Assembly: GCF_019599045.1 (NCBI RefSeq)
Contig: NZ_CP080623.1
Location: 456,501-520,500 of the forward strand
Reading direction: 5' to 3'
DNA from: Roseovarius sp. SCSIO 43702
GTDB taxonomy: Bacteria; Pseudomonadota; Alphaproteobacteria; Rhodobacterales; Rhodobacteraceae
Length of the DNA: 64,000 nucleotides
Position 1 is the first letter of the stretch. Each line of letters opens with the position of its first letter. The notes under the pieces are model-generated. The model searched no databases. It was given only the letters and a program-made list of their open reading frames with translations, and was not told where the DNA came from. Position numbers and translations under genes: made by a program. Below, one piece after another: positions 23,751 through 40,298 of this stretch.

Positions 23751-25490
23751 TCAGCCCGTCTTGCGCGCGCGCGCCGTCGCGGCATCGTCGATCTCGCCCG
23801 CATCGGTCAGGACGACACCGAAAAGCGCCTGCGCCTGGTCCCGCGTGTAGCGGCCCAGCGCCACGTCGCGCGCCACCGCCTGCGCGTCGCGCGTCATGGG
23901 ATCGCCGTAGCCGCCGCCGCCGGGTGTGCGCACGTGCACCCGGTCGCCGGGGGCCAGCGGGATGTCCTGCGCCTTCGACAGGTGCGGCGGGGTATAGGGC
24001 TCGCCGCCGCGCCAGACCGTCACCTGGTTGACCGCTCCGTCGCCGCCACCCAGCGCGCCCTGCGGGCCGAACCGGCCGTGATCCATCACGAAGCTGGCCG
24101 TGGCCGTGCCGCGCCTCAGCTCGACCTCGTAGTCGAGGCCGAAGCCGCCACGATGCGCACCCGCGCCGCCCGATCCCTCGTGCAGGGCGTAGCGGTGGTA
24201 GAGCACCGGAAAGGCCTGCTCCATGATCTCGACCGGCGGCGCCTTGGAAATGCCGATGGTCGAGCATCCGTTCGACAGCCCGTCACCACCCGCGTAGCCG
24301 CCATATCCGCCCCCCGAAAGCTGGTACATCACGAAATCGCGGCCCCGGTCAGGGTCATGCCCGCCCAGCGCGAAATTGCCGCTCGTCCCGGCGGGCGCCG
24401 CGGTCACGCGGTCGGGCAGAACAGGGACCAACGCTGCGAAAACCGCCTCGGCGATGCGCTGGCTCACCTCGGCCGCGCAGCCCGAGACGGGGCGCGGATA
24501 TTGCGCGTCGAGGAAGGTGCCTTCGATCCCCGTCACCACCAGCGGTTCGAATGCCCCCGCGCTGATCGGCACCTCGGGAAAGATGTGGCGCATGGCAAGG
24601 TAGACCGAGCTGAGCGTCGTCGCCCGCACCGAGTTCATCGGGCCGCGGCAGGGCGGGCTCGAGCCTGTGAAGTCGAAGACGAGGTCGCGGCCGTCGCGCG
24701 TGACCGAAAGGCGGATCGCGAGCGGCTCGTCCACCACGCCGTCACTGTCGATCCAGGCCGTGCTCTCGTGCCGTCCCTCGGGGATGTGCGCCACGAAGCT
24801 GCGCATCTGCTCGGCTGCGCGCGCACGCAGCTCGGCGATGGCCGCGCGGACCGTGTCGTCGCCGTAGCGGTCGAGCAGCAGGTCAAGCCGCTCGGCTCCG
24901 AGATCGAGCGCCGCGGCCTGCGCGCGCACGTCGCCGATGCGCTGGTCGGCCACGCGGATGTTGGAACAGATGATCGCATAGATCTCGGGGTCGAGCGTTC
25001 CCTCCTTGAAGAGCCGCACGGGCGGCAGGCGCAGACCCTCCTGCTCGACCGCCGTGGCCGACGCCGAGAAGCCCCCCGGCACCGCGCCGCCGGTGTCGGG
25101 CCAGTGGCCCGTGTTGCTGAGCCAGCAGAAGATCTCGCCGTTCCGCCAATAGGGTCGGGCAAAGCGCACGTCCATCAGGTGCGTGCCGCCCAGGTAGGGG
25201 TCGTTGACGATGTAGATGTCGCCCTCTTTTGGCGCCGCGACGCTGCCCTCCGCGATCATCTTGAGCAGGATTCGGGTCGAATATTGCATCGTGCCCACGA
25301 AAACCGGCAACCCGCCCGCGCCCTGCGCGACCAGCGCGCCGTCGGTCGCGTCGTAGATGCCGTCGGAGCGGTCATTCGCCTCGGCGATGACCGGCGAGAA
25401 GGCGGCGCGCGAGAAGGCGAGGTCCATCTCGTCGCAGACCTGTTGCAGACCCGCCTGAATGACCGACAAGGTGATCGGGTCGAGGGTCAT
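23751..25490 (-). CDS. hyuB: Hydantoinase B/oxoprolinase family subunit
   Basis: A 579-residue subunit of an ATP-dependent amidohydrolase of the N-methylhydantoinase/5-oxoprolinase family, which opens cyclic amides such as hydantoins and 5-oxoproline. Family marks include EANDRSDGIYD near residue 40, YIVNDPYLGGTHLMDVRF near 98 and GGGGYGDPMTRDA near 535. Its ATG overlaps the hyuA stop by four bases. The neighbours encode an importer and a heterocycle hydroxylase/reductase set, so its true substrate may be a lactam formed in that pathway. Confidence 0.88.
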   Translation of the reverse strand: MTLDPITLSVIQAGLQQVCDEMDLAFSRAAFSPVIAEANDRSDGIYDATDGALVAQGAGGLPVFVGTMQYSTRILLKMIAEGSVAAPKEGDIYIVNDPYLGGTHLMDVRFARPYWRNGEIFCWLSNTGHWPDTGGAVPGGFSASATAVEQEGLRLPPVRLFKEGTLDPEIYAIICSNIRVADQRIGDVRAQAAALDLGAERLDLLLDRYGDDTVRAAIAELRARAAEQMRSFVAHIPEGRHESTAWIDSDGVVDEPLAIRLSVTRDGRDLVFDFTGSSPPCRGPMNSVRATTLSSVYLAMRHIFPEVPISAGAFEPLVVTGIEGTFLDAQYPRPVSGCAAEVSQRIAEAVFAALVPVLPDRVTAAPAGTSGNFALGGHDPDRGRDFVMYQLSGGGYGGYAGGDGLSNGCSTIGISKAPPVEIMEQAFPVLYHRYALHEGSGGAGAHRGGFGLDYEVELRRGTATASFVMDHGRFGPQGALGGGDGAVNQVTVWRGGEPYTPPHLSKAQDIPLAPGDRVHVRTPGGGGYGDPMTRDAQAVARDVALGRYTRDQAQALFGVVLTDAGEIDDAATARARKTG

Positions 25491-27550
25491 GCGCCGCCTC
25501 CCGTCCCGATCGTCATCACGAGGTTGCCCTGCGCATCCCCGCGCGCCACGTCGGACGTGCCGACAAGGAGCGTCGTGTCCATCTGTTCCACGATCGCGGG
25601 TCCCTCGATAACCGCGTCGAGCGGCAGGTGATCGCGCCAGTAGACCGGCACCTCCCGCGTGTCGCCGTCAAGCCGCACGGCGCGCGTGCCGGTGCGGGCC
25701 TCGGCGATGGACGCCTTCCGCCCCGCCGGGTCGATCAGGCTGCCCAGGTCGAGGGCCGGGCGCGCACCGATGACCGAGGTGTTGACGTTCACCAGGTTGG
25801 CGCGCACCCGGTCGAGCCGCACGCGGAACCGGCGGAAATAGGCCTCCTCGAAAAGCCGCTGCAACGCGTCGAGCGAGATATCCGCGCTTTCCAGGTCGAC
25901 CCGAAGCAGGTGGGTTTGCCCGACGAACTGCATGTCCACCGAATGCACATGCCGAAGCCCCGTGATCCCGATCCTTTCGCGCGCGATCATGCGCTCGCCC
26001 TGCACGGTCTGCGCGTCGAGGATATCGTGCAGCTCCGAGACGTCGAGCCGATCAAGCGGGCGGTTGACCGTGGTGACGAAATCGTGCCGCAGGTCGGCGA
26101 CGACACAGCCGATGGCGTTGGTGATGCCCGGTCGGCTCGGCACGAGAACGCGCGGGATCCCGAGTTCGCGCGCCAGCGCGGCGGCGTGGAGCGGCCCCGC
26201 GCCACCGAAGGCGAACAGCGCGAAATCCCGGGGATCGGCCCCCAGGGAGAGCGAGACCATGCGGATCGCGCCCGCCATCGTGGTGTTGGCCAGCCGGATC
26301 ACGGCCTCCGCCGCATCCGTGACCGAGACACCCAGAGGGCGCGCGAGGTCCTGCTCGAAAACAGTCTCTATATCGGCTAGGGACACGCCACCCCGCACGG
26401 CGAGCTTGGCGGGGTCGAGCCGCCCGAGAAGCAGGTTCGCGTCGGAAATCGTGGGCGCGATCCCGCCCCGGCCATAGCAGATCGGCCCCGGATCGGCGCC
26501 CGCGCTTTCGGGACCGACCTGCAGGAGACCCGCGGCATTCACCCGCGCGATCGACCCGCCGCCCGCGCCCACGGTGCGCACATCGACCATGGGCACGTGA
26601 ATGGGCATCGCGTATTCGATCTCGATCTCGTTCGAGACCGCGGGTTCGGCGCCGCGCACCATGGCGACGTCGGTCGAGGTGCCGCCCATGTCATAGGTGA
26701 TGAGGTTGGGCATTCCCGCCGCGCGCCCGGTGTAGGCCGCGGCCATTACCCCCGAGGCCGGTCCGCTCATCACCGTCTTGGCGGCCTCGTCGGCCACGGT
26801 CCGCGCCGATACCATCCCGCCATTGCCATTCATGACCAGAACGTCGCCGCGATAGCCGCCCTTCGCCAACTCTCCGGTCAGGCGCGAGATGTAGCGCGCG
26901 AGGATGGGCTGCACCGAGGCGTTGACTGCGGCCGTCACCCCGCGCTCGTATTCGCGCGCCTCGCTGAGGATCGCGTGGCCGAGCGTGACGTGATCGTTGG
27001 GCCAGAGCGCGCGCAGGATCGCGCCGGCCCGCAATTCATGCGCGGGGTTGGCATAGGCGTGCAGGAAATGAACGACGACCGACTCGCAGCCCTTGTCGAG
27101 GAGCGTCTGCGCGGCCTCGGCCACGGCGCTCTCGTCGAGCGGCGTGACGACGTGGCCCGCGGCGTCCATCCGTTCGGGCACCTCGAGCCGCAGGTCGCGG
27201 GGGATGAGCGGGGTGAACTGTCCCGTCATCCCGTAGGCCCGCGGCCGGGTGCGGCGACCCAGCTCCAGCACGTCGCGAAACCCGTGCGTGGTGATGAGGC
27301 CCGTGCGGCTCAGCTTGCGTTCGAGCACCGCGTTGGTGGTCGTGGTGGTTCCGTGGACGACAAGGTCGAGCGTCGAGAGGTCCGATCCCGCCTCGTCCAG
27401 GGCGGCAAGGACGCCGAAGGCCTGGTTGTCGAGGGTCGAGGGCACCTTGGAGAGCTTCACGCGGCGCGTCACCGGGTCGAGCTCGACAAGGTCGGTGAAC
27501 GTGCCGCCCACGTCGATCCCGGCTATCCGCCCGCTTGCTGGCTCCGTCAT
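25487..27550 (-). CDS. hyuA: Hydantoinase A/oxoprolinase family ATPase subunit
   Basis: A 687-residue subunit with an actin/Hsp70-like ATPase fold. GIDVGGTFTDLVELDP at residues 9-24 and TYDMGGTSTDVAMVRG near 290 are the two phosphate-binding segments; FAFGGAGPLHAAALARELG is near 455. It activates the cyclic amide with ATP for ring opening with HyuB. ATG 27550 was chosen because upstream codons give no family similarity. It is divergent from the plus-strand gene run starting at 27687, sharing a 136-base control region. Confidence 0.88.
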   Translation of the reverse strand: MTEPASGRIAGIDVGGTFTDLVELDPVTRRVKLSKVPSTLDNQAFGVLAALDEAGSDLSTLDLVVHGTTTTTNAVLERKLSRTGLITTHGFRDVLELGRRTRPRAYGMTGQFTPLIPRDLRLEVPERMDAAGHVVTPLDESAVAEAAQTLLDKGCESVVVHFLHAYANPAHELRAGAILRALWPNDHVTLGHAILSEAREYERGVTAAVNASVQPILARYISRLTGELAKGGYRGDVLVMNGNGGMVSARTVADEAAKTVMSGPASGVMAAAYTGRAAGMPNLITYDMGGTSTDVAMVRGAEPAVSNEIEIEYAMPIHVPMVDVRTVGAGGGSIARVNAAGLLQVGPESAGADPGPICYGRGGIAPTISDANLLLGRLDPAKLAVRGGVSLADIETVFEQDLARPLGVSVTDAAEAVIRLANTTMAGAIRMVSLSLGADPRDFALFAFGGAGPLHAAALARELGIPRVLVPSRPGITNAIGCVVADLRHDFVTTVNRPLDRLDVSELHDILDAQTVQGERMIARERIGITGLRHVHSVDMQFVGQTHLLRVDLESADISLDALQRLFEEAYFRRFRVRLDRVRANLVNVNTSVIGARPALDLGSLIDPAGRKASIAEARTGTRAVRLDGDTREVPVYWRDHLPLDAVIEGPAIVEQMDTTLLVGTSDVARGDAQGNLVMTIGTGGGA

Positions 27551-27578
27551 GTGCGCCCGTCCCGTCCCGCGTCGCTCC

Positions 27579-27607
27579 GAGTTTCGCCAGACCCGCGCCT
27601 TTGTCAA
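27579..27607 (-). promoter_or_regulatory. Possible sigma-70-type promoter of hyuA
   Basis: A perfect TTGACA (27607-27602, minus strand) is followed after 17 bases by AAACTC (27584-27579), a poor -10. It would give a leader of about 22 bases before hyuA. The -35 match is the only strong point. Confidence 0.25.
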
Positions 27608-27686
27608 CGCGCGCCTCGCTTTGCCTTTGCGCGCGCCTGCCGCATAGTGGGGCGACATTCGGGGCCGCAAGAGGGGCAATGACGCG

Positions 27687-29054
27687 ATGGGGGGAAAGGG
27701 GGCAGCGGCGCTCGTGCTGACGCTCTGGGCCGGCGCGGTCCGGGCACACGCGTCGGAGCAGGGCTTCGTCCTGCTTTTGCCCACCGACATCTATATCGGC
27801 GCGGGCGTGCTCAGCGTGGCGCTCACGCTGCTGCTGCTGGCCGTGCTGCCCGAGGGGCTGAGCCACGCGCTTTTTCGACCGCTCGGTCTCTGGCCGCGAC
27901 CGCGGCCGCGCGTCGGGCACGTCACGAGCCTTGCCACCGCCGCCGTGCTGGTCTGGCTGGTGCTGACGGGACTTTCGGGGTCGCGCGATCCGCTGGTCAA
28001 TCCGCTGCCGCTCACGATCTGGGTGGTGTGGTGGATCACGCTCGTCTCGGTGCAGGGGCTTTTCGGGAATGTCTGGCGCTGGCTCGACCCGTGGGTCGGT
28101 CCCGCCGCCCTGATGGCGGCGATGACGGGGGAGCGCGCGCCGCTGCGCTATCCCCGCCGTCTTGGCCATCTGCCCGCGCTCGCCGGGTTCCTGGCGTTCG
28201 GCGCCTTCCTGCTGGCCGATCCCGCGCCCGCCGATCCCGCGCGGCTTGCCTGGGTGGTCGGGGCCTACTGGCTGGCCAATCTCGGGGCGTTGATGCTTTT
28301 CGGACCCGCATGGCTCGTCCGGGCCGAGTTCGTGACCGTGCTGATGCGCGCCTACGGGCGGATGGCTCTTTTCGGCCGCACGCGGGGCCGCGTGGCCGTG
28401 GGCCTGCCCGGCTGGCAGGTCCTCCGCGCGGCCCGGCCCGTGCCCTTGGGCCTCGCGCTCTTCATACTGCTCCTTCTGGGTGCCGGAAGCTTCGACGGGC
28501 TCAACGAGACCTTCTGGTGGCTGGGGATGATCGACGTGAACCCGCTCGAGTTTCCCGGGCGTTCGGCGGTGATGCGCTCGACGCTGGCGGGGCTTCTGGT
28601 GTCGAACCTGGGTCTCGTCGCCGTCTTCGCGGTGACGCTCTGGCTCGGGCTTCGCATCGCGGGTGGCGGAGTGCCGCTTGGCCGGGCGCTGCGGGTCTTC
28701 GCACCGTCGATCCTGCCCATCGCGCTGGCCTACCACATCGCGCATTACCTCACGAGCTTCCTTGTCGACGGGCAGTATGTCCTTTCGCTCGTGTCCCGTG
28801 CGCTGGGTGGCGAGGGGCTGCGCGTGACGGCGGGGTTTCTCAACACGCCGGGGCCGGTGAAGATGATCTGGCTCACCCAGGCGGGAGTCGTCGTGGCGGG
28901 CCACGTCATCGCGATCCTGATCGCCCACGCCCTTGCGCTCGGGCTTCTGGGCGGCACGCGCCGCGCGGTACTGAGCCAGCTTCCGCTGGCGCTTTTCATG
29001 GTGGGCTACACCTTCTTCGGCCTCTGGCTCCTGGCCAGCCCGCGCGGGATGTGA
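27687..29054 (+). CDS. Polytopic membrane protein, fenitrothion-hydrolase-like family
   Basis: A 455-residue protein with a signal-like first helix ending at HASEQG and about ten further membrane helices. Conserved-looking polar residues in helices include IWVVWWITLVSVQGLFGNVWRWLDPW near residue 112 and YHIAHYLTSFLVDGQYVLSLVSR near 355, the latter His-rich. I recall similar proteins labelled fenitrothion hydrolase after a Burkholderia protein, but function is essentially unknown. It is the first gene of the plus-strand run, 75 bases before the ABC binding-protein gene. It could be a channel or an enzyme for the imported substrate. Confidence 0.7.
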   Translation: MGGKGAAALVLTLWAGAVRAHASEQGFVLLLPTDIYIGAGVLSVALTLLLLAVLPEGLSHALFRPLGLWPRPRPRVGHVTSLATAAVLVWLVLTGLSGSRDPLVNPLPLTIWVVWWITLVSVQGLFGNVWRWLDPWVGPAALMAAMTGERAPLRYPRRLGHLPALAGFLAFGAFLLADPAPADPARLAWVVGAYWLANLGALMLFGPAWLVRAEFVTVLMRAYGRMALFGRTRGRVAVGLPGWQVLRAARPVPLGLALFILLLLGAGSFDGLNETFWWLGMIDVNPLEFPGRSAVMRSTLAGLLVSNLGLVAVFAVTLWLGLRIAGGGVPLGRALRVFAPSILPIALAYHIAHYLTSFLVDGQYVLSLVSRALGGEGLRVTAGFLNTPGPVKMIWLTQAGVVVAGHVIAILIAHALALGLLGGTRRAVLSQLPLALFMVGYTFFGLWLLASPRGM

Positions 29055-29128
29055 CGCGCCAAAAGACTCGACAAGCGGCCCGTTGCCTCGCAGGATCATG
29101 GCCAGACACGCAGCGGGGAGGCAGCACC

Positions 29129-30415
29129 ATGACCAAGGACATCAAGGGGATCACGCGCCGCGGGGCGCTCGGGACGCTGGCCGCAGGGGCGGGTGCCGCC
29201 GCGTTGCCGATGTGGGCGCGCTATGCGCAGGCGCAGACCTCCGAGCCGATCCGCATCGGGTTCCAGGTGCATCGCACCGGCATCGGCGCGGCCTACGGGC
29301 GCTGGTACGGCCGCACGACCGAGGCGGCGGTGAAGCTCATCAACGACGGTGGCGGGATCAACGGCCGCATGGTCGAGATCGTGGCCGAGGATGACGGCAC
29401 CGACCCCAAGCGGGGCGCCGAGGTGGTCGAGAAATTCGCCAACCAGCACAAGTGCGACGTCGGATACGGCACGCTTTTCTCGCATGTCGTCATCGGCTCC
29501 GCGCCGCGTGCGGGCGAGCTGAAGCTGCCCTATTTCGTGGTGTCCGAGGGGCATCACGTCGCCAGCGGCATGCTCAATCGCTACACGCTTCAGCCCGGCA
29601 TCACCGACGTGAAGAGCCAGGTTCAGGCGATGGCGCCCTATGTGGCCGGGAACCTGGGCAAGAAGGTCACGATGATCTTTCCCGATTTCGCCTTCGGCCA
29701 CGATCACCGCGATTTCTTCACCGAGGCGATCGAGGCGCAGGGTGGCGAGGTGCTGGCCCATATCGCGATCCCGCCGGCCGAGACCTCGTTCACCAAGTAT
29801 TTCCCCAAGATACCGCGCGATACCGAAGTGCTCTATCACGTCATGGTCGGGCCCGCGGTGCTGACATTCGTGAAGGAGCTTGGGGAATTCTTCGGTCCGC
29901 AACGCCCCGAGATGTTCGGCTTCATCGACAGTCTCGAGGCGGTCGACCTCGCGAGTCCCGGCCTCGAATATCTGGAGGGCACCTACATGTGGGAGGGCAA
30001 CCCGCGCCACGCGCAGGCCGATCAGTCAGAGCATGACAAGTTCTACCGCGAGGCGGTGGGCGTCGACGAACGCGGCGCCTCGGTCTCGGACCCCACCGAT
30101 GTCTCGACCTATGCCCACATGTTCGGCTGCTGGGAAACGCTCCACGTCATCAAGGCCGGGATGGAGGCCGCCGACTACCAGGGGCCCGATGATCGTGCCG
30201 CGCTGATCGAGGCGGTCGAGGCGATGACCGACATGCCCGAAAGCCGCGAGCATCCGCAAGGCGCCAAGCGCTTCAACGGGAAGACCCACCAGGTCTTCGG
30301 CCACCAGTATATCAGCCGCGTGGGCGAAGGCGGCACGCTCGAGAAGGTGCATACCACGTCGATCGAGGATACGCTCTATCCCGACGAGGTGGACTACACG
30401 ACCCAGAGCTTCTGA
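29129..30415 (+). CDS. ABC transporter substrate-binding protein (branched-chain amino acid type)
   Basis: A 428-residue periplasmic binding protein of the LivJ/type I fold. The N-terminus is a Tat signal with twin Arg (ITRRGALG) and cleavage near AQAQ at about residue 35. The mature part starts IRIGFQVHRTGIGAAYG and contains NDGGGINGR and VEIVAEDDGTDPKRGAE. Amide- and urea-type compounds are common ligands in this group; the ligand here is unknown. ATG 29129 has GGGGAGG eight bases upstream. It heads a five-gene importer. Confidence 0.87.
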   Translation: MTKDIKGITRRGALGTLAAGAGAAALPMWARYAQAQTSEPIRIGFQVHRTGIGAAYGRWYGRTTEAAVKLINDGGGINGRMVEIVAEDDGTDPKRGAEVVEKFANQHKCDVGYGTLFSHVVIGSAPRAGELKLPYFVVSEGHHVASGMLNRYTLQPGITDVKSQVQAMAPYVAGNLGKKVTMIFPDFAFGHDHRDFFTEAIEAQGGEVLAHIAIPPAETSFTKYFPKIPRDTEVLYHVMVGPAVLTFVKELGEFFGPQRPEMFGFIDSLEAVDLASPGLEYLEGTYMWEGNPRHAQADQSEHDKFYREAVGVDERGASVSDPTDVSTYAHMFGCWETLHVIKAGMEAADYQGPDDRAALIEAVEAMTDMPESREHPQGAKRFNGKTHQVFGHQYISRVGEGGTLEKVHTTSIEDTLYPDEVDYTTQSF

Positions 30416-30545
30416 GACGTGGCCGCGTCGCGAACCGGTGCTCCACGGCAGGACGCGAGGCGCTTGATGTGCGGTCGTCCTCTCGGGCACCCCCGACACC
30501 CGGCGATGCGGCCGCGCAAGACCCCCGACAGGTAAGCGAGACGCG

Positions 30546-31472
30546 ATGGATCTTGGCCCCTATCTCCTGCTGGCGACGCTCGAAGGCTCGGTCACCGCGG
30601 CGGTACTCGCGCTCACGGCGGTGGGGCTGAGCCTCGTCTTCGGCGTGATGCGGGTCGTCAACATCGCGCATGGCGAGTTCTTCATGCTGGGCGCCGTGAT
30701 CGCCTGGGTGCTGACCCAGTGGATCGCGGCCCATCCGGCCATCGGCTTCGCGGTGGCGCTCCTGGTGGCGCCGGTGCTGGTGGGGGCGATCGCGGTGGCG
30801 GCGGACGTGACCATCCTCAAGCGGCTCGATTACGACCCCGAGCGGACCATCGTGGCCACGATCGGCCTGCTCTACATCATCCAGCAGGTCACGCTCATGA
30901 CCTACGGTCCCGAGGCGCGGCCGGTCGAGCCGCCGTTCAACAGCCGCCTCGCGATCCCGTGGGTCCAGTGGGGCGAGGACGGCCTTGCGATGTATTGGCC
31001 CTGGGGGCTCAGCACGACGAGCTACAAGCTTGCCGTGATCGGTGCCGCGGCCGCGATCCTGTGCGGTGTCTGGGCGATGATGACACGGACGCGCGTCGGC
31101 CTCGTCATGCGCGCGACGCAGGCGGACCGGGACATGGCGCTCGCTTTCGGCATCCCGGTCGAGCGGGTCTACGCGATGGTCTTCGGCATCGGCGCGGGGC
31201 TTGCCGCGATGGCCGCCGTGCTGATCGTGCCCATCCAGCAGGCGCATTACCTGATGGGCGCCGATCCGCTTCTGCTGAGCTTCATCGTCGTGATCATCGG
31301 CGGCCTCGGAAGCCTGCCGGGCACGGTGGTCGCGGCGATCCTCATCGGGCTCTCGGACGGAATCATCTCGGTCTTCTTCTCGCCCACGCTGGCCAAGATC
31401 CTCGCCACGCTTCTCGTGGGCCTCGTCCTCGTCTTCCGGCCCCAGGGCCTTTTCGGGACGCGCGGCGCATGA
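30546..31472 (+). CDS. livH: Branched-chain-type ABC transporter permease (LivH family)
   Basis: A 308-residue inner-membrane permease of the LivH type with eight to nine helices. The family segments GLSLVFGVMRVVNIAHGEFFMLGA (starting near residue 24) and GGLGSLPGTVVAAILIG (near 257) are present. It starts 130 bases after the binding-protein gene and its stop overlaps the livM start by four bases. It pairs with LivM to form the channel. Confidence 0.88.
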   Translation: MDLGPYLLLATLEGSVTAAVLALTAVGLSLVFGVMRVVNIAHGEFFMLGAVIAWVLTQWIAAHPAIGFAVALLVAPVLVGAIAVAADVTILKRLDYDPERTIVATIGLLYIIQQVTLMTYGPEARPVEPPFNSRLAIPWVQWGEDGLAMYWPWGLSTTSYKLAVIGAAAAILCGVWAMMTRTRVGLVMRATQADRDMALAFGIPVERVYAMVFGIGAGLAAMAAVLIVPIQQAHYLMGADPLLLSFIVVIIGGLGSLPGTVVAAILIGLSDGIISVFFSPTLAKILATLLVGLVLVFRPQGLFGTRGA

Positions 31473-32413
31473 GCGTGACGGGACGGTCGTGGGCGCTGCA
31501 CCTGGGGCTGCTGGCGGTGCTTTTCGCGCTGCAGTTCGTGCTGCCCGCCTATCACCACGGAAACCTTGCGCGGATCATGGTGCTGGCGTCCTACGCGATC
31601 GGCTACAACATCCTGTTCGGCTATACCGGGCTTCTGAGCCTCGGACATGCGCTCTTCTTCGCGGCGGGCATGTATGGCATGGGGCTCGGCGTCACCCATG
31701 CCGGCCTTTCGCCGGCCATGGCCCTGCTGGCGGGCGTCGTGGCGGGCGCGGCGGTGTCCTTCCTGCTGGCGCTCCTCGCGCTCAGGACATCGGGCGTGGC
31801 CTTCATGATCGTCACGCTCATGTTCGCGCAGGCGGGCTATCTCGCCATCCTCTATTTCGGCACCTGGACGCGGGGGGACGAGGGGTTCATCATCGCGTCC
31901 GCCGACCGCATCCTGTGGGGACTGGACCTGAGCGATCCCACGAACCGCTATTTCGCCGCGTTCGCCCTTTTCGCGGTCTGCCTCGTCATCTCGCTCAGGC
32001 TCGTGCGGCGACCTTTCGGGCGCACGCTCATCGCGATCCGCGAGAACGAGGAACGGGTGCGGATGCTGGGCTACGACACCTACGCGCACAAGCTCGGGGC
32101 GATGGTGATCTCGGGCACGATCTCGGCGGCGGCGGGTGCGGCCTACGGCATTCTCTTCGGCTATGTCGGTGCCAGTTTCGCGGCGGTCCCGCACTCGATC
32201 CTGCCCCTGCTCTACGTGCTTCTCGGGGGTGCGGGCACGATCCTCGGGCCCTTCGTCGGCGCGCTGTTCATGTTCTACCTGATCGACCTCGCCTCGGGGA
32301 TCACCACGGCGCACATGCTGATCGCCGGCGTGGCGCTCGTCCTGCTGACGCTCTTCGCGCCGCAGGGCCTGATGGGCGAATTGCGCCGCCGCCTGTGGCG
32401 AGGGCTGCCATGA
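31469..32413 (+). CDS. livM: Branched-chain-type ABC transporter permease (LivM family)
   Basis: A 314-residue LivM-type permease with about ten helices. It carries GYNILFGYTGLLSLGHALFFAAGMYG near residue 44, IRENEERVRMLGYD near 188 (the cytoplasmic coupling loop) and VLLGGAGTILGPFVGA near 250. ATG 31469 overlaps the livH stop; the stop overlaps the livG start as ATGA. Confidence 0.88.
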   Translation: MSVTGRSWALHLGLLAVLFALQFVLPAYHHGNLARIMVLASYAIGYNILFGYTGLLSLGHALFFAAGMYGMGLGVTHAGLSPAMALLAGVVAGAAVSFLLALLALRTSGVAFMIVTLMFAQAGYLAILYFGTWTRGDEGFIIASADRILWGLDLSDPTNRYFAAFALFAVCLVISLRLVRRPFGRTLIAIRENEERVRMLGYDTYAHKLGAMVISGTISAAAGAAYGILFGYVGASFAAVPHSILPLLYVLLGGAGTILGPFVGALFMFYLIDLASGITTAHMLIAGVALVLLTLFAPQGLMGELRRRLWRGLP

Positions 32414-33117
32414 GCATTCTCGCCGCGGAGGGTCTGACCAAGCGGTTCGGCGGCCTCACGGCGGTCGAGGACGTGAGCTTCGAGGTGCCGCGCGGCGAGG
32501 TGCGCGCGCTCATCGGGCCCAACGGTGCGGGCAAGACCACCCTCGTCGGCATGATCTCGGGCCGGATCGAGCCCAGCGCCGGCCGCGTCACCTTCGACGG
32601 GCGCGACATCACGCGGCTCCCGGCGCACAAGCGGATCATGGCGGGCATGGCCTACACGTTCCAGATCACCTCGGTCTTCACCGGCCTTTCGGTGCGCGAG
32701 AACGTGGCGCTGGCCGCGCGCCGGCACCTGCGCCACGACGAGACGGCGCAGGCCGTGGAGAACGCGCTGGCGCGGGTGGGCCTCGCCGACCGGATCGACC
32801 AGGAAGCAGGCGATCTGAGCTATGGGCACCAGCGCCTTCTCGAGATCGCGATGGGCCTCGTGCAGCGCCCGCGCCTCTTGATCCTCGATGAACCGACGCA
32901 GGGCCTTTCGGATGGCGAGATCGAGGGGTTCAAGGCGCTTGTGCGCGAGCTGGCGGGCGACACCACCATCCTGCTCATCGAGCACAACATGAGCGTCGTG
33001 ATGGAGGTGGCCGACCGCGTGACGGTGCTCAATTTCGGAGAAGTCCTCGCCCATGGCACGCCGGACGAGATCCACCACAACGCGGACGTGCAGGCCGCCT
33101 ACCTGGGAACGGGGTGA
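32410..33117 (+). CDS. livG: ABC transporter ATP-binding protein (LivG family)
   Basis: A 235-residue ATPase. Walker A GPNGAGKTT lies near residue 38, Q-loop FQITSVF near 84, signature LSYGHQRLLEIAMGL near 140 (variant of LSGGQ), Walker B LLILDEPTQGL near 160 and the switch His in LLIEHNMSVV near 193. It is one of the two ATPases of the importer, with LivF. Confidence 0.88.
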   Translation: MSILAAEGLTKRFGGLTAVEDVSFEVPRGEVRALIGPNGAGKTTLVGMISGRIEPSAGRVTFDGRDITRLPAHKRIMAGMAYTFQITSVFTGLSVRENVALAARRHLRHDETAQAVENALARVGLADRIDQEAGDLSYGHQRLLEIAMGLVQRPRLLILDEPTQGLSDGEIEGFKALVRELAGDTTILLIEHNMSVVMEVADRVTVLNFGEVLAHGTPDEIHHNADVQAAYLGTG

Positions 33118-33121
33118 CGCG

Positions 33122-33817
33122 ATGCTGAGGCTCGAGGAGGTCAATGCCGGATACGGACGCGCGCAGGTGCTGCGCGACCTCTCGCTCGACGTTCAGGCGG
33201 GCGAGATCGTCTGCCTTCTGGGCCGCAACGGGGCGGGCAAGACCACGACGATGAAGACGATCATGGGGCTTCTGCCGCTCATGTCCGGGCGCGTCCTGCT
33301 TGGCGGCGAGGAGTTGAGCGCGCTGCCCGCGCACGAGGTGCCGAAGCGCGGCATCGGCTACATCCCGCAGGGGCGGCGGCTTTTCACCGGGCTCACCGTC
33401 GCACAGAATCTCGAGATCGGGCTTGCAGCGCGGCGTAGCGGGCCGGAGGTGCGCGACGAGGTGCTGGGCCTTTTCCCGCGCCTGCGCGAGCGCCTGAACC
33501 AGCGCGCCGAGACGCTTTCGGGCGGCGAGCAGCAGATGCTCGCGACGGCGCGGGCGCTCTGCCTGCAGCCCCGCGCCCTGTTGCTCGACGAGCCCACCGA
33601 AGGGTTGCAGCCGTCGATGATCGAGGCGATCCGCCAGGTGATCGTGCGGATGCGCGACCAGGGCGTCGCGATCCTCCTGGTCGAACAGCGGGTCGATGCC
33701 GTCCTTTCGGTCGCCGATCGCGTGGCCTTCATCGAAAACGGCCGCAACGGCGAGGTGATGGCGGCGGATGTGCTTCGCGCCGATCATTCCATCGTCGACC
33801 GCTACGTGGGGGTCTGA
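33122..33817 (+). CDS. livF: ABC transporter ATP-binding protein (LivF family)
   Basis: A 231-residue ATPase. Walker A GRNGAGKTTT lies near residue 36, Q-loop YIPQGRRLF near 84, signature LSGGEQQMLATARAL near 133 and Walker B LLLDEPTEGL near 158; the switch position reads VEQRVD. It starts four bases after livG and ends the importer set; the hydroxylase genes follow after 109 bases. Confidence 0.88.
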   Translation: MLRLEEVNAGYGRAQVLRDLSLDVQAGEIVCLLGRNGAGKTTTMKTIMGLLPLMSGRVLLGGEELSALPAHEVPKRGIGYIPQGRRLFTGLTVAQNLEIGLAARRSGPEVRDEVLGLFPRLRERLNQRAETLSGGEQQMLATARALCLQPRALLLDEPTEGLQPSMIEAIRQVIVRMRDQGVAILLVEQRVDAVLSVADRVAFIENGRNGEVMAADVLRADHSIVDRYVGV

Positions 33818-33926
33818 GCGTGGAAGGCGGGCCTTCGCGCCGAGACCAACACGCCCATCCCGCGTTGACAGGACGGGGTGGCCGGGCGCAGGCTTGTGGC
33901 GTGACCGGTCGGGGAGGTGTGATCGG

Positions 33927-34772
33927 GTGTATCTGAGGCCCAAGACGCTGGACGAGGCGCTGCGCCACCTGGGCGAGACCGGCGCGCGCGTGGCGGCGGG
34001 CTGCACCGATCTCTTCCCCGCGGCGCCGGATCGGCGCACGCTCGAAGGTCCGCTCCTTGATGTCACCGCCATCGACGGCATGAAGGGGATCGCCCGCGAG
34101 GGCGAGACGTGGCGCATCGGCGGCGCGACGACATGGCGCGAGATCATCGCCGCGCCCCTGCCGCCCGGTTTCACCATGTTGAAGGAGGCGGCGCGGGAGG
34201 TCGGCTCGACCCAGATACAGGCCGCGGGAACCATCGCGGGCAATCTCTGCAACGCCTCGCCCGCCGCCGACGGGGTGCCATGCCTCATGGCGCTCGACGC
34301 GTCGGTGCGGCTGCAGTCGCTGCGCGGGGAACGTGTCCTGTCCCTGGCCGAGTTCCTGACCGGCCCGCGCCGGACCGCGCTGCAATCCGGCGAATTGCTC
34401 GTCTCGGTCGACGTGCCGGCGAAGGGGATCGAGGGACGTTCGCGGTTTCTCAAGCTCGGGGCACGACGCTACCTGGTGATCTCGATCGCCATGGTCGCCG
34501 CGCGGCTGGTGATCGAGGAGGGGCGCATCGCGCGCGCGGCCCTCGCCGTGGGAGCGTGCAGCGCGGTGGCGCGGCGACTGCCCGAGGTCGAGGCGGCGCT
34601 GGCCGGGCATCCCGTGGATCGCCCGCCCGGGATCGACGCCGGTGCGGTGGCCCGCGCGCTGGCCCCCATCGACGACATCCGTGCGGACGCGGCCTATCGC
34701 AACGAGGCGGCGGCCGAGCTTCTGAGGCGCGCGGTGTCGGACCTGCTTTCGGGGCAAGGAGCCGTGGCATGA
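33927..34772 (+). CDS. FAD-binding subunit of xanthine dehydrogenase-family hydroxylase
   Basis: A 281-residue FAD subunit (CoxM/XdhB-type). Residues 1-170 bind FAD, with AAGCTDL near residue 20 and [23 protein letters not shown] near 95, the conserved FAD pyrophosphate segment; a CO-dehydrogenase flavoprotein C-terminal domain follows. It starts at GTG 33927 with GGGGAGG nine bases upstream. It passes electrons from the fused FeS/Mo subunit next door to the final acceptor. A TTGACA at 33865 lies upstream but has no matching -10. Confidence 0.85.
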
Positions 34773-37456
34773 ACCGGCAGGGAGGTGCGATATCCTTCAC
34801 GCTGAACGGCACCGCGCGCACCTCGCTCGCGGCCCCCGCGCGCCGCCTGTCCGAGGTGCTGCGCGACGAGATGGGCGTGCGTGGCACCAAGGTGGGGTGC
34901 GACGCGGGCGATTGCGGTGCCTGCACCGTGCTTCTGGACGGGACACCGGTCTGTGCCTGCCTGACACCCGTGGCGCAGGTGGCGGGGCGCAGCGTTCGCA
35001 CCGTCGAGGATCTGCGCGACCACCCGCTGCAACGTGCCTTCCTGCGCCACGGCGCCGCGCAATGCGGCATCTGCACGCCGGGGATGCTCATGGCCGCGGT
35101 CGACCTGTTGGAGCGGACCGCGACGCCCACCCGCGGCGAGGTCGAGGAGGCGCTGGGCGGCGTTCTCTGCCGCTGCACCGGCTATGCCAAGATCATCGAC
35201 GCGGTGATGGACGTGGGCGGCGATGGAACCGCACCACGCCCCGAGGCGGGCGCGGCCGTGGGCGCTGGGATAGAGCGGCTGGACGGGCTGCCGAAGGTCG
35301 AGGGAACCGAGATCTACGGTGCGGACCACGTGCCCGAGGGCGCGCTTCTTGTCCGCGCGGTGCGCGCACCGGATGCGCCGATGGCCTTTTCATTCGGGGA
35401 TATGGCGGCCTATGGCGCGCGCCACGGCATACACGTCTTCACCGCCGCCGACATACCGGGCGAGAACCGCTTCGGCGTCATCCCCCCTTTCGCCGATCAA
35501 CCGGCCCTGGCCGAACGGCACGCGCGGCTGCGCGGAGAGGCCGTCGCGCTCGTCGCCGGGCCGCCGGAGGTGATCGAGGCGCTGGACCTCGCGGAGTTTC
35601 CCGTGACGTGGGAGACGCTGCCTGACCGGCCAGTGCACGAAAGCCGCCCCGACGATGTGCTCATTACCGGCCGCGTGGTGCGGGGCGAGGCCGAGACCGC
35701 GCTGGGCATGTCGGCCCACGTGGTCGAAGGCAGCATGGAGACGCCCTATATCGAGCACGCCTATATCGAGCCGGAGGCGGGTGCCGCGTGGATGGACGGT
35801 GAATGCCTCGTCATCCAGGCCTGCACGCAGGCGCCCGTGATGGACCGGGACGACACCGCGAAGGTTCTGGGCCTGCCGCCCGAGCGCGTGCGCATCATTC
35901 CCGCGGCGGCGGGCGGGGGCTTCGGGTCCAAGCTCGACCTGTCGCTGCAACCGCTCATCGGGCTCGTGACACTGAGAACCGGCCAGCCGGCGCGCATGGT
36001 CTACACGCGCGGCGAATCCATGGCCTCGACCACCAAGCGGCATCCCGCGCGGATGACCGCGCGGATCGGCGCGGATGCCGAGGGGCGGTTGACCGGCATG
36101 GTCTTCGATGGCGATTTCAATACGGGTGCGTATGCAAGCTGGGGGCCGACCGTCGCGGGCCGGGTGCCGGTGCACGCGTCCGGCCCCTACTACATGCCCG
36201 CCTACAGGGCCCACGCCCGCGCCATCCACACGCATCAGGCCAGTTCCGGCGCGTTCCGCGGCTTCGGCGTGCCGCAGGCCGCGATCATGCAGGAGACGCT
36301 CTTCGACACGCTGGCGGAGCGGTTGGGGATGGACCGGCTGGCCTTTCGGCGGCTCAACGCCTTGACCGACGGGCAGGAAACGCCCTGCGGGCAGGAATTG
36401 CGGGGCGTCGGCATCGCCGCCTGCCTCGACGCGCTCGAGGTCCCGTGGCAGGCGGCGCTGACCCGCGCCGAGGCTGCCAACCGCGCGCCGGGGCCATTGC
36501 GCCACGGGGTCGGTGTCGCGTCCTGCTGGTACGGGTGCGGCAACACGGCACTGCCGAACCCTTCGACCGTGCGGCTGGGCCTCACCGGGGAGGGGGAGTT
36601 GATCCTCCACCAGGGCGCGACGGATATCGGGCAGGGCTCGAATACCGTCATCACCCAGATCTGCGCCGACGCGCTGGGATTGCCGGTGTCGCAGTTCCGA
36701 CTTATCGGTCCCGACACCGCCCGAACGCCGGACTGCGGCAAGACCTCGGCCTCGCGCCAGACCTACGTGACCGGGAAGGCGGCGATGCTGGCGGGTCAGG
36801 CGCTCCGCGCGGCGATCCTCAAGCGTGCCAACATGGGCGACGGGGCGACCATGTCGCTCGACGGCGCGGTCCTGACCCTGACCGAGAATGGCCGGACGCA
36901 GCGCATCGCGTTGACGGACCTGCCCCGGGACGCGCATGGCTATGTCCTGCGCGGTGAAGAGACCTACGATCCGCCCACCACGCCGCTCGACGAAGACGGG
37001 CAGGGGGTGCCTTATGCCGTCTACGGCTACGGCGCGCAGGTGGCCGAGGTGGCGGTCGATACCGCGCTCGGCACGACGCGCGTCACCCGGATGACCGCCG
37101 CGCATGACCTCGGTCGCGTCATCAACCCGGTGCTGGCCGAGGGGCAGGTGCAGGGCGGCATCGCGCAGGGGCTTGGCCTTGCGCTCATGGAGGAATTCAT
37201 TCCCGGCCGCACCGAGAACCTGCATGACTACCTCATCCCCACCACCGGCGACATGCCGGAGATCGAGACGATCTTCGTCGAGGTGCCCGACCCGGAGGGG
37301 CCGATGGGCGCGAAGGGGCTGGGCGAACATGTGCTGATCCCTACCGCGCCCGCCATCCTCAACGCGATCCGCCACGCGACCGGCGCGCTGGTGACGCGGC
37401 TGCCGGCCCTGCCGCACCGCGTCCTCGCCGCCATGCGGGAGGCGCGTGATGGCTGA
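34769..37456 (+). CDS. Fused [2Fe-2S]/molybdopterin subunit of xanthine dehydrogenase-family hydroxylase
   Basis: An 895-residue fusion. Residues 1-160 are a CoxS-type domain with two [2Fe-2S] clusters (CDAGDCGAC with a later CAC, then CGICTPG and CRCTG). The rest is the molybdenum-cofactor part, with AGGGFGSK near residue 388, [11 protein letters not shown] near 492, [11 protein letters not shown] near 615 and the catalytic Glu in GAKGLGEH near 850. Domain order resembles Desulfovibrio aldehyde oxidoreductase rather than two-subunit XDH. It should add a hydroxyl group from water to a C-H beside a ring nitrogen, or oxidise an aldehyde; the ABC/Hnr context favours a heterocycle. ATGA overlap with the FAD subunit gene. 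Confidence 0.87.
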
Positions 37457-38894
37457 TCGACGCGAACGCGAGGAGAAGATCCGCTGCGATGCCTGCCCGG
37501 TCATGTGCTACATCGCCGACGGCAAGGTCGGCGCCTGCGACCGCTACGGCAATGTCGGTGGCCAGATCGTGCGGTGCGACCCGATCACCATACTTGACCG
37601 TAGGGTCGAGGCCGGGGGCGAGGTGCGGCCCTTTCTCGCCTCCGACTGGGACGGGACGCTTTCGGGCGATGACGTGTTCGTCTCGGGCGTGGGCGCCGGC
37701 ACCACCTATCCCGATTACAAGCCCGCCCCCTTCATCGTCAGCCGCGAGATCGCGGGCGTCGATACCGTGACGGTCGTGACCGAGGCGATCTTTTCCTATT
37801 GCGGGGTCAAGGTGAAGATCGACACCGATCGCCACCTGGGCGAGGAGGCCGCGACCGTCCGCGCCGAGGGTGAGCCTGTGGGTCATGTCACGACGTCGGA
37901 ATACGGCTCGCGGATGCTGTCGCTCGGCGGGGTCGAACATCTCACGGGCGGCACCAAGCCCGAGGGCCGCGTCACCTGTGACGCGCTCTTGCGGCTCTGC
38001 CAGGGCGATGCGGTGGAACTCACCATCGACGGCGGCGCCACCGTGATCGTGCAGGCCGGCCACGCCCCCATCGTGGACGGCACGCGCGAGGAGCGGATGC
38101 GTGTCGGGTGTGGTTCTGCCACGATCGGGATGTTCGCCTCGCAATGGCTGGGCCACGTGGACGAGGTGGTCGTCGTGGACGATCACATCACCGGCGTGGT
38201 GAGCGAACACCAGGCGGGCAAGGTCCTCGGCTGGCCCGACACCGGGATCCGCATCAAGGGGCGGCGATCCACGCCGGGGCGCTATTTCCAGGTGGCCGAG
38301 CCGGGGCTTGGCTGGGGCGGAACGGACATAGACGATCCGCTCTCGATCCTGAACCCGTGGCTCGAGAAGAAGGGCGCCCGGCCGGGCCTCACGCTTCTCA
38401 TGGTCTCGACCACCGGCGAACATGCGGCCTATTTCGTGCTGGATGACGGCCTCGTGCCGCAACCCGCGCCGATGCCCGAGGTGCTGCAAGCCTCGGTCGA
38501 TCTCATCGCCCAGAACTGCGAACCGGCGCTCTGCACGGTGATGTTCCAGGCGGGTGCGGGCGGCTCGCTTCGCTCGGGCGTGACGAAGAACCCCGTGCTG
38601 CTCACCCGCTCGGTGCAGTCGGGCGAGACGCGCGTCACCTGTGGCGGGGCCGAGGTTTTCGTCTGGCCGGGCGGAGGGATCACGCTGATGGTGGACGTGA
38701 CGACGATGCCCGACGGCTCCTTCGGCTACGTGCCCACGCCCGCGCTGGTCGCGCCGCTGGAGTTCACCTTGCCGCGCGACGCCTACCGGCGGCTCGGTGG
38801 CCATGACGACGCGGTGCGCAGCGTGGCGGACGTGGTCGAGAAAGGCGGCGAATACGGCAGCGACATGCGCGTCGTGAAGGATCGCAAGCCATGA
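37449..38894 (+). CDS. 6-hydroxynicotinate reductase-like iron-sulfur protein
   Basis: A 481-residue protein resembling the ferredoxin-dependent 6-hydroxynicotinate reductase of Eubacterium barkeri, which partly reduces a hydroxylated pyridine ring. The N-terminus has the Cys cluster [22 protein letters not shown], fitting an Fe-S site; further Cys lie in [15 protein letters not shown] and [10 protein letters not shown] Gly-rich stretch with [18 protein letters not shown] is near residue 280. The start at ATG 37449 lies within the end of the hydroxylase gene (eight-base overlap), so the two are coupled. The exact ring substrate is unknown. Confidence 0.78.
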
Positions 38895-39724
38895 GCAGCG
38901 CGCAGGTCTCGTGGCTTCCCGATGGCCGGCTCCACCTGCATCACGGGCCCATCGACATGATCGTGGGCATCGAGGGACCGGGACGGCGCACCGGGTTCGA
39001 GCGTGCGGCGGCGCGGTTCCGCACTCTCCTGCAAGAGCTGGTGGACGAGCTGCCACGCCTGCGCGCGTCTCGCGGCCCCGTGCCCTCAGGCACGACCGCC
39101 CGCGCCATGCACCGTGCCGTCGCGCCCTTCGCCAACCGCTTCGTCACGCCGATGGCCGCGGTCGCGGGGGCCGGGGCCGAGACGATCCTCGCGGCGATCA
39201 CGGCCGGGGACGGGATCGACAAGGCCCATGTGAACAATGGCGGCGACATCGCCTTTCACCTCGCGCCCGGCACGACGATGCGCGTCGCCATGGCGGGAGG
39301 GCGCATCGAGATCGGACACGCCGACCGGGTGCGCGGCATCGCCACATCCGGCTGGCGCGGGCGCAGCCACTCGCTCGGCATCGCGGACGCCGTGACCGTG
39401 CTGGCCCGAAGCGCGGCAGAGGCCGACGCCGCCGCCACGCTCATCGCGAACGCGGTGGACCTGCCCGGCCACCCTGCCATCACCCGCTGCCCCGCGCGTG
39501 ACATCGCGCCCGAAAGCGATCTGGATCACCACCCCGTCACGCGCCATGTGGGCCTCCTGACCAAGGCCGAGATCGCCGAGGCCCTCGACCGTGGCGCGCG
39601 CTTTGCCGATGTGGCCCTCGCGCGCGGGCTCATCCACGCCGCCGCCCTGACCCTTCGGGGCGAGACACGGATCCGCGGCACGCTCCCCCTGACATCGCAA
39701 CAACCGGATCTGACCCATGCCTGA
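38891..39724 (+). CDS. UPF0280 family protein (ApbE-like fold)
   Basis: A 277-residue protein of UPF0280. The family is structurally close to ApbE, the enzyme that attaches FMN to proteins. Conserved parts: APFANRFVTPMAAVAGAGAETIL near residue 77, VNNGGDIAFHL near 115 and SGWRGRSHSLGIADAVTVLA near 155. ATGA overlap with the reductase-like gene before it. A role in flavin attachment or assembly of that reductase is inferred from fold and neighbours; no biochemical data are known to me. Confidence 0.78.
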   Translation: MSSAQVSWLPDGRLHLHHGPIDMIVGIEGPGRRTGFERAAARFRTLLQELVDELPRLRASRGPVPSGTTARAMHRAVAPFANRFVTPMAAVAGAGAETILAAITAGDGIDKAHVNNGGDIAFHLAPGTTMRVAMAGGRIEIGHADRVRGIATSGWRGRSHSLGIADAVTVLARSAAEADAAATLIANAVDLPGHPAITRCPARDIAPESDLDHHPVTRHVGLLTKAEIAEALDRGARFADVALARGLIHAAALTLRGETRIRGTLPLTSQQPDLTHA

Positions 39725-40298
39725 TTTCACCCTGCGCAAGACCATGACATTCATCGAGGATATCCATCACGACGGCGGCCCCGCTCCAGATACGCCCCGG
39801 CGCCGCGCCGCCATCGCGGCGCTCGTGGCGAACCCGTTCGCCGGACGCTACGAGGAGGAATTGCAATCGGCGATGGACGACCTGAAGCCATTGGGCCTCA
39901 TGATGACCGACGCCCTGATCGAAGCGATGGGCGGCATCGAGGGGATCGACGGCTATGGCAAGGCCGCCATGTGCGGCGAGCGGGGTGAGCTCGAGCATAC
40001 CGCGCTGTGGCACGTGCCGGGCGGCTATGCCATGCGCGCGCGGTTGGGCGCGGCGAAGGCCATCGTGCCCTCGGCCATGAAACAGGGCGGGCCGGGCACC
40101 ACGCTTGACGTGCCGCTGGGCCATATCAACGCGGCCTATGTCCGCAGCCATTTCGACGCCATGGAAGTGAGCCTGCCCGACGGCCCGCGCGCCGACGAAC
40201 TGCTTTTCGTGCTCGCCATGAGCCGGGGCGGACGCATTCACGAGCGCATGGGCGGCCTGTCGGTGGACGAGGTGAGGGGCGAGGACGGGTTGCGGTAG
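39717..40298 (+). CDS. Amino acid synthesis family protein (DUF1185)
   Basis: A 193-residue protein of the DUF1185 'amino acid synthesis' family. Typical segments: GGPAPDTPRRRAAIAALVANPFAGRYEE near residue 19, YGKAAMCGERGELEHTALWHVPGGYAMR near 80 and VPLGHINAAYVRSHFDAMEV near 122. The family is catalytically uncharacterised, yet repeatedly sits in heterocycle or amide degradation clusters. It is the last gene of the plus-strand run, overlapping the UPF0280 gene by eight bases. Confidence 0.78.
   Translation: MPDFTLRKTMTFIEDIHHDGGPAPDTPRRRAAIAALVANPFAGRYEEELQSAMDDLKPLGLMMTDALIEAMGGIEGIDGYGKAAMCGERGELEHTALWHVPGGYAMRARLGAAKAIVPSAMKQGGPGTTLDVPLGHINAAYVRSHFDAMEVSLPDGPRADELLFVLAMSRGGRIHERMGGLSVDEVRGEDGLR

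Follow-up and report, generated by a model that had tools for sequence, protein, structure and literature searches.

The window analysed here is a stretch of 64,000 nucleotides (C1:456501-520500) of the single-contig 3.61 Mb genome of Roseovarius sp. SCSIO 43702. It contains a divergent block of 16.5 kb, in which the genes for HyuB and HyuA run leftward on the minus strand and the remaining genes run rightward on the plus strand. HyuB (hydantoinase B/oxoprolinase; 23751..25490) matches PF02538 with an E-value of 6e-155 and is proposed to be a subunit of the enzyme opening the ring of 1,4,5,6-tetrahydro-6-oxonicotinate (THON). HyuA, the ATP-dependent subunit (25487..27550, with the ATG at 27550 chosen as start), matches PF01968 (E 3e-86) and PF05378 (E 2e-53). 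The rightward arm begins with a conserved membrane protein (27687..29054) that has 9 TM-like segments by hydropathy. The ABC importer comprises a substrate-binding protein (SBP; 29129..30415, PF13458 with E 3.5e-47 in the ORF 28028-30415), a LivH-type permease (30546..31472; PF02653, E 3e-33), a LivM-type permease (31469..32413; PF02653, E 2.4e-35), a LivG-type ATPase (32410..33117; PF00005 in the ORF 31489-33117), and a LivF-type ATPase (33122..33817; PF00005, E 2e-31). Then come the FAD subunit of a molybdenum hydroxylase (33927..34772, GTG start chosen; PF00941 with E 7e-38, and PF03450) and a fused [2Fe-2S] and MoCo subunit, the proposed nicotinate 6-hydroxylase (34769..37456; PF01799, PF02738, and PF20256 in the ORF 34109-37456). 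The block closes with a 6-hydroxynicotinate reductase-like protein (Hnr; 37446..38894), so called from the NCBI names of its homologues, a UPF0280 protein (38891..39724), which exceeds the NF003322 cut-off, and a DUF1185 protein (39717..40298), which matches PF06684 with an E-value of 1.8e-66 and 223 bits against a gathering score of 27.

The genes are tightly packed, with overlap lengths that depend on the start codons chosen in the analysis. HyuA/HyuB, LivH/LivM, and LivM/LivG each overlap by 4 nt, and from the FAD gene onward all junctions overlap (FAD/MoCo 4 nt, MoCo/Hnr 11 nt, Hnr/UPF0280 4 nt, UPF0280/DUF1185 8 nt). A reading of LivM and LivG as one fused gene (ORF 31489-33117) was rejected, since LivM lies in another frame. 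This gene content, computed directly, agrees with the preliminary description of the DNA: the tight overlaps are as it had placed them and every gene that it named was found in its place, but the membrane protein was missing from its list. The latter has no match in Pfam or NCBIfam; its homologues in relatives usually lie just upstream of the SBP gene, and it possibly belongs to uptake or electron disposal. The flanking genes tested on the left (amine oxidase-like, MFS, DUF3833, SDR, and DUF3775) and on the right (EamA, histidine kinase, and AMP nucleosidase-like) look unrelated to the block.

A scan of named genomes for Hnr yielded at least 592 confirmed relatives, the best 80 of which were kept; these come mostly from Rhodobacterales and Mesorhizobium, with some from SAR116. 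Among these best 80 of at least 592, the MoCo, Hnr, and UPF0280 genes are consecutive in 74 and the full FAD-[2Fe-2S]/MoCo-Hnr-UPF0280-DUF1185 row is kept in 55, many stretches ending at contig ends, so that the arrangement, again a direct computational result, is far beyond chance. The preliminary description had proposed a neighbourhood analysis, with genes that do not travel together counting against its reading; the analysis was run, and the genes do travel together. Of 126 loci, 121 have UPF0280 adjoining Hnr. In three of the remaining five (L011, L052, and L129) the sequence stops no more than 270 bases from Hnr, L130 holds a split Hnr, and in L010 the 1563 bases left contain no UPF0280. 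In the 10-kb flanks of the same best 80 of at least 592 loci, many of them cut, HyuA is found 22 times, HyuB 13 times, and enamidase never. A MarR regulator gene occurs near Hnr in 57 of 86 named loci. A ferredoxin-NADP reductase-like gene is also seen near Hnr in 17 of these 86 (e.g., L085:7831-8667, L086:14884-15657, L089:15018-15845); its product is a possible electron supplier for Hnr, and none was seen in the window block.

The sequence of the hydroxylase alone does not name nicotinate as its substrate: the MoCo subunit matches nicotinate dehydrogenase 3hrd (E 7e-66), and aldehyde oxidoreductase 1sij matches more strongly. No Pfam or NCBIfam model matches Hnr; homologues at about 80-85% identity are called 6-hydroxynicotinate reductase by NCBI, an assignment by name and similarity. 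For structure prediction, Hnr and UPF0280 were each aligned as the window protein with 43 chosen relatives, taken from 86 Hnr and 80 UPF0280 candidates after sequences under the length limits had been dropped and the plasmid loci left out. CxxCPxxC..C and other residues are invariant in the 44 Hnr sequences.

Nicotinamidase, NicAB-type genes, and enamidase near Hnr all point to nicotinate. A nicotinamidase gene lies near Hnr in 27 of 86 named loci and in 11 of 65 genome loci, and the single example tested exceeds the NCBIfam cut-off; in the window's own genome, nicotinamidase is located about 350 kb from the block. On the plasmids L084 and L085, genes annotated nicA/nicB take the place of the window's FAD/MoCo hydroxylase next to an Hnr-UPF0280-DUF1185-HyuAB set, and the products of these nic genes carry MoCo and cytochrome c domains. 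The MarR genes in L084 and L087 were annotated NicR by the depositors. On L086, a betaproteobacterial plasmid, Hnr and UPF0280 are accompanied by NicAB-type genes, two DUF1185 genes, and a gene for an amidohydrolase, which matches enamidase 2VUN with an E-value of 2.4e-111 over 380 residues; HyuAB is absent from this 33-kb stretch. NicAB-type genes occur in 9 of 27 enamidase-type genome loci and in none of the 36 HyuAB-type ones, the link between NicAB and HyuAB coming from L084 and L085. Pyrimidine, hydantoin, picolinate, and purine routes were rejected, since none of the recurrent neighbours of Hnr that were seen pointed to them.

The THON route leads from nicotinate via 6-hydroxynicotinate and THON to ring opening, according to the available parts of two papers (PMC9304392, PMC3511419), the former of which describes the Eubacterium barkeri enamidase as bifunctional. 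The available part of PMC3511419 reports a nicotinate cluster in Bradyrhizobiaceae strain SG-6C, Azorhizobium caulinodans, B. japonicum, and R. palustris, which was identified by BLAST searches using the E. barkeri cluster and is said to cover the first three steps; the third-step gene is therefore presumably an enamidase. Like the window block, that cluster, as far as this part of the source describes it, has Hnr, genes for the initial steps, a putative nicotinate ABC transporter, and two conserved unknown proteins. The term 'hydantoin' is absent from the text of PMC3511419.

Taken together, there is strong support for the view that the block lets this marine-type bacterium use nicotinate (vitamin B3) via the known reductive THON route. 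The Liv-type ABC transporter would import nicotinate, the FAD/[2Fe-2S]/MoCo enzyme would hydroxylate it to 6-hydroxynicotinate, and Hnr would reduce the latter to THON, the lactam of which HyuAB would hydrolyse using ATP. The resulting enamine would lose ammonia to give 2-formylglutarate, the same product as that of enamidase elsewhere. In the weaker part of the proposal, UPF0280 may put flavin on Hnr or handle it. We infer the substrate, each reaction in this strain, the coupling of THON opening to ATP, and the onward route to glutarate. The best explanation as a whole, nicotinate import and degradation by the THON route with HyuAB opening THON at the expense of ATP, appears to us highly probable. 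It fits the outline given in the preliminary description (import, hydroxylation beside the nitrogen, reduction, and ATP-dependent lactam opening), which had counted nicotinate among several possible substrates; nothing that was seen pointed to pyrimidines, hydantoins, or picolinate. Its view of the system as possibly undescribed may hold for HyuAB as the ring opener, which was not found in the literature searched, but not for the block at large, which fits the reductive nicotinate route as published in the available part of PMC3511419. Thus, the nicotinate cluster is already known in kind and the new element is probably the ATP-driven ring opener.

The HyuAB proteins resemble caprolactamase CapAB, N-methylhydantoinase, and 5-oxoprolinase in having both subunits and their domains, Hydant_A_N, Hydantoinase_A, and Hydantoinase_B all exceeding the Pfam cut-offs. 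The nearest solved structures are hydantoinase 6yra and N-methylhydantoinase 7hk5 for HyuB, and 7hk5 and 6yra, ahead of the acetophenone and acetone carboxylases, for HyuA. Unlike the characterised enzymes, the window pair, at 477.6 and 303.3 bits, does not come near the caprolactamase equivalog cut-offs (1000 bits) and forms a clade of its own that is tied to Hnr. Two genomes that lack Hnr (G114 and G217) also carry the HyuB clade, its neighbour there being another molybdenum hydroxylase; hence the clade is not exclusive to the nicotinate pathway and may open more than one ring. In the two loci concerned (L161 and L162), the same-clade HyuAB is accompanied by a MoCo protein of the xanthine dehydrogenase type as well as by MarR and PLP-decarboxylase-like genes, with BKACE in L161; these loci perhaps represent another heterocycle pathway.

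The role of HyuAB is best approached through its distribution. The same 289 alphaproteobacterial genomes were searched for Hnr, HyuB (at least 62% identity), and enamidase (at least 66%). Hnr is present in 44, and these 44 fall into 27 with HyuB only and 17 with enamidase only, none having both or neither. In these first searches, scoring was confined to the best few candidates of each genome, and the Hnr-positive genomes were therefore searched again, this time scoring all candidates: among the 17 enamidase-type genomes HyuB identity reaches 45% at most, and the sole enamidase-like match in the 27 HyuB-type genomes has 40%. The window genome (G000) gave no enamidase match at E<=1e-60, all 13 candidates being scored. 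Among the 245 Hnr-negative genomes, the HyuB clade occurs in 2 and enamidase in 1 at the same cut-offs, counts that refer to the best few candidates, with all-candidate scoring for one protein each in G082, G114, and G217.

A second, phylum-wide draw, in which the Hnr search again scored the best few candidates of each genome, found Hnr in 26 of 349 genomes, 22 of them new. With all HyuB and enamidase candidates scored and enamidase counted from 60%, these 22 comprise 10 with HyuB only, 10 with enamidase only, 2 with both (G395 and G462, enamidase 60-62%), and none with neither; if enamidase is counted from 66%, G600 (63%) becomes 'neither', and G395 and G462 become HyuB only. Sixteen Hnr-negative controls of the window's family have neither the HyuB clade nor enamidase. 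The pooled 66 Hnr-positive genomes thus divide into 37 with HyuB only, 27 with enamidase only, 2 with both, and none with neither (Fisher p 1.7e-16, ignoring relatedness). The identity cut-offs were set after gaps had appeared in the score lists; HyuB matches at 34-56% and enamidase matches at 36-42% were not counted as members of the clades. Across the 64 single-type rows of an Hnr tree built by a quick method (66 rows in all), there are at least 7 changes of label; on well-supported branches 4 independent pairs remain, for which a sign test gives p 0.125. The type differs within families as well, G104 (HyuB) against G210 (enamidase) in f104, and G000, G543, and G595 (HyuB) against G600 (enamidase) in the window's own family. 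Linkage to Hnr on the same stretch is seen for HyuAB in 21 of 36 HyuAB-type genome loci and for enamidase in 20 of 27 enamidase-type ones; these are lower bounds, since genome loci span at most about 20 kb.

When two unrelated enzymes alternate in an otherwise constant pathway, as the direct counts show here, the simplest view is that they do the same job. The HyuAB family consists of ATP-dependent cyclic-amide hydrolases, THON is a cyclic amide, and enamidase opens it. It is therefore most likely, on well supported but indirect grounds, that HyuAB opens THON with ATP in place of enamidase. The literature searched contains no statement of HyuAB as the THON ring opener, none joining oxonicotinate with hydantoinase, and none joining hydantoinase, nicotinic acid, and Roseobacter.

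The DUF1185 genes differ with the type of ring opener. Two solved DUF1185 structures left the function open, according to the available part of PMC2954203. An additional DUF1185 gene, of one particular subtype, is present in 23 of 27 enamidase-type loci (e.g., L093, L096-L098, L138, L139, L156, and L157) vs. 1 of 36 HyuAB-type genome loci, and this subtype behaves as if it were a partner of enamidase; the HyuAB-type plasmid loci L084, L085, and L089 do have a second copy. The window genome carries a second DUF1185 gene at C1:2630856-2631380 (L002, L164), 34% identical to the first, with no other query genes within about 9 kb. A further stretch, L167 of G395, contains an enamidase-like gene (61%) and two DUF1185 genes and no Hnr, Hnr and HyuAB being elsewhere in that genome; it has the appearance of a remnant of the alternative type of cluster.

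The correlation of DUF1185 copies with the ring opener is one reason to consider that the THON route stands and HyuAB serves a later step, a carboxylation, or the opening of a side product, the ring itself being opened by an unrecognised hydrolase such as DUF1185. The HyuAB family does contain carboxylases, as the matches to ApcC/ApcD illustrate, and 2 of the 245 Hnr-negative genomes carry the HyuB clade. However, HyuA and HyuB score higher with lactam and hydantoin hydrolases (caprolactamase, hydantoinase, and oxoprolinase) than with carboxylases, enamidase and HyuAB stand in for one another and hardly ever occur together, and 15 of 36 HyuAB-type genome loci, which span up to about 20 kb and are in some cases cut, showed no DUF1185 gene. 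We consider this division of labour unlikely.

The same enzymes might also act on another substrate, a substituted pyridine, fed for example from trigonelline, or a different N-heterocycle, with nicotinate at most secondary. The SBPs of the relatives do fall into two groups with either 61-92% or 24-31% identity to the window SBP, and a VanA_C/Rieske oxygenase gene, the product of which could feed an N-methylated precursor, is present in 8 of the 27 genome loci of the enamidase type and in 1 of the 36 of the HyuAB type. But no Rieske gene was seen among the window genes of the block, NicAB-type genes and nicotinamidase accompany Hnr in relatives, and trigonelline degradation passes through nicotinate, so that even this precursor would still flow through it. 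A different main substrate therefore seems very improbable. Rieske oxygenases with a VanA_C domain were seen at L089:19535-20605 and in 9 of 65 genome loci, mostly of the enamidase type; our guess is that they could N-demethylate trigonelline to nicotinate.

Alongside nicotinate as the substrate and HyuAB as the THON opener, the analysis offers a lead on UPF0280. 6-Hydroxynicotinate reductase carries a covalent flavin, and the usual target of ApbE is a conserved Thr/Ser flavinylation motif. UPF0280 is predicted to adopt an ApbE-like fold. Unlike the FAD:protein FMN transferases ApbE and Ftp, the window protein falls below the score of PF02424 (E 1.5, 8.7 bits vs. a gathering score of 25.6); of 44 members, 22 match this model at E<=10, the best with an E-value of 4.8e-4. 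The sequence GCGSAT of Hnr was considered as the ApbE target motif and rejected: its threonine, T226, is conserved in more than 90% of the sequences but is not invariant, and for this reason no flavinylation site is claimed in Hnr. We propose UPF0280 as a flavinylation factor of Hnr, with Hnr as the supposed target. The literature searched has nothing on UPF0280 and nothing joining ApbE with 6-hydroxynicotinate. The joint proposal, that HyuAB is an ATP-driven enamide hydrolase for THON that has repeatedly displaced, or been displaced by, enamidase, and that UPF0280 proteins are cytoplasmic ApbE-fold flavin transferases dedicated to Hnr with a target site unlike the ApbE motif, is a tentative one, which we consider possible.

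In comparison with E. barkeri and A. caulinodans, the window block shares the conversion of 6-hydroxynicotinate to THON followed by hydrolytic opening, as the available parts of the papers describe it, and differs in that HyuAB stands in a genome without a detected enamidase. The presence of UPF0280 and DUF1185 in the operon is counted as another difference. Nicotinate and nicotinamide commonly serve as growth substrates, and the cluster is found again in many genomes of Rhodobacterales and rhizobia and in some of SAR116. The UPF0280 lead would make both the function of the family and the origin of the covalent flavin of Hnr directly testable and, if true, would give a whole 'unknown' protein family a function. 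If HyuAB opens THON, this would explain how many bacteria finish the classic pathway without the textbook enzyme, would add an activity to a poorly mapped family of ATP-dependent hydrolases, and would allow genomes without enamidase to be read correctly.
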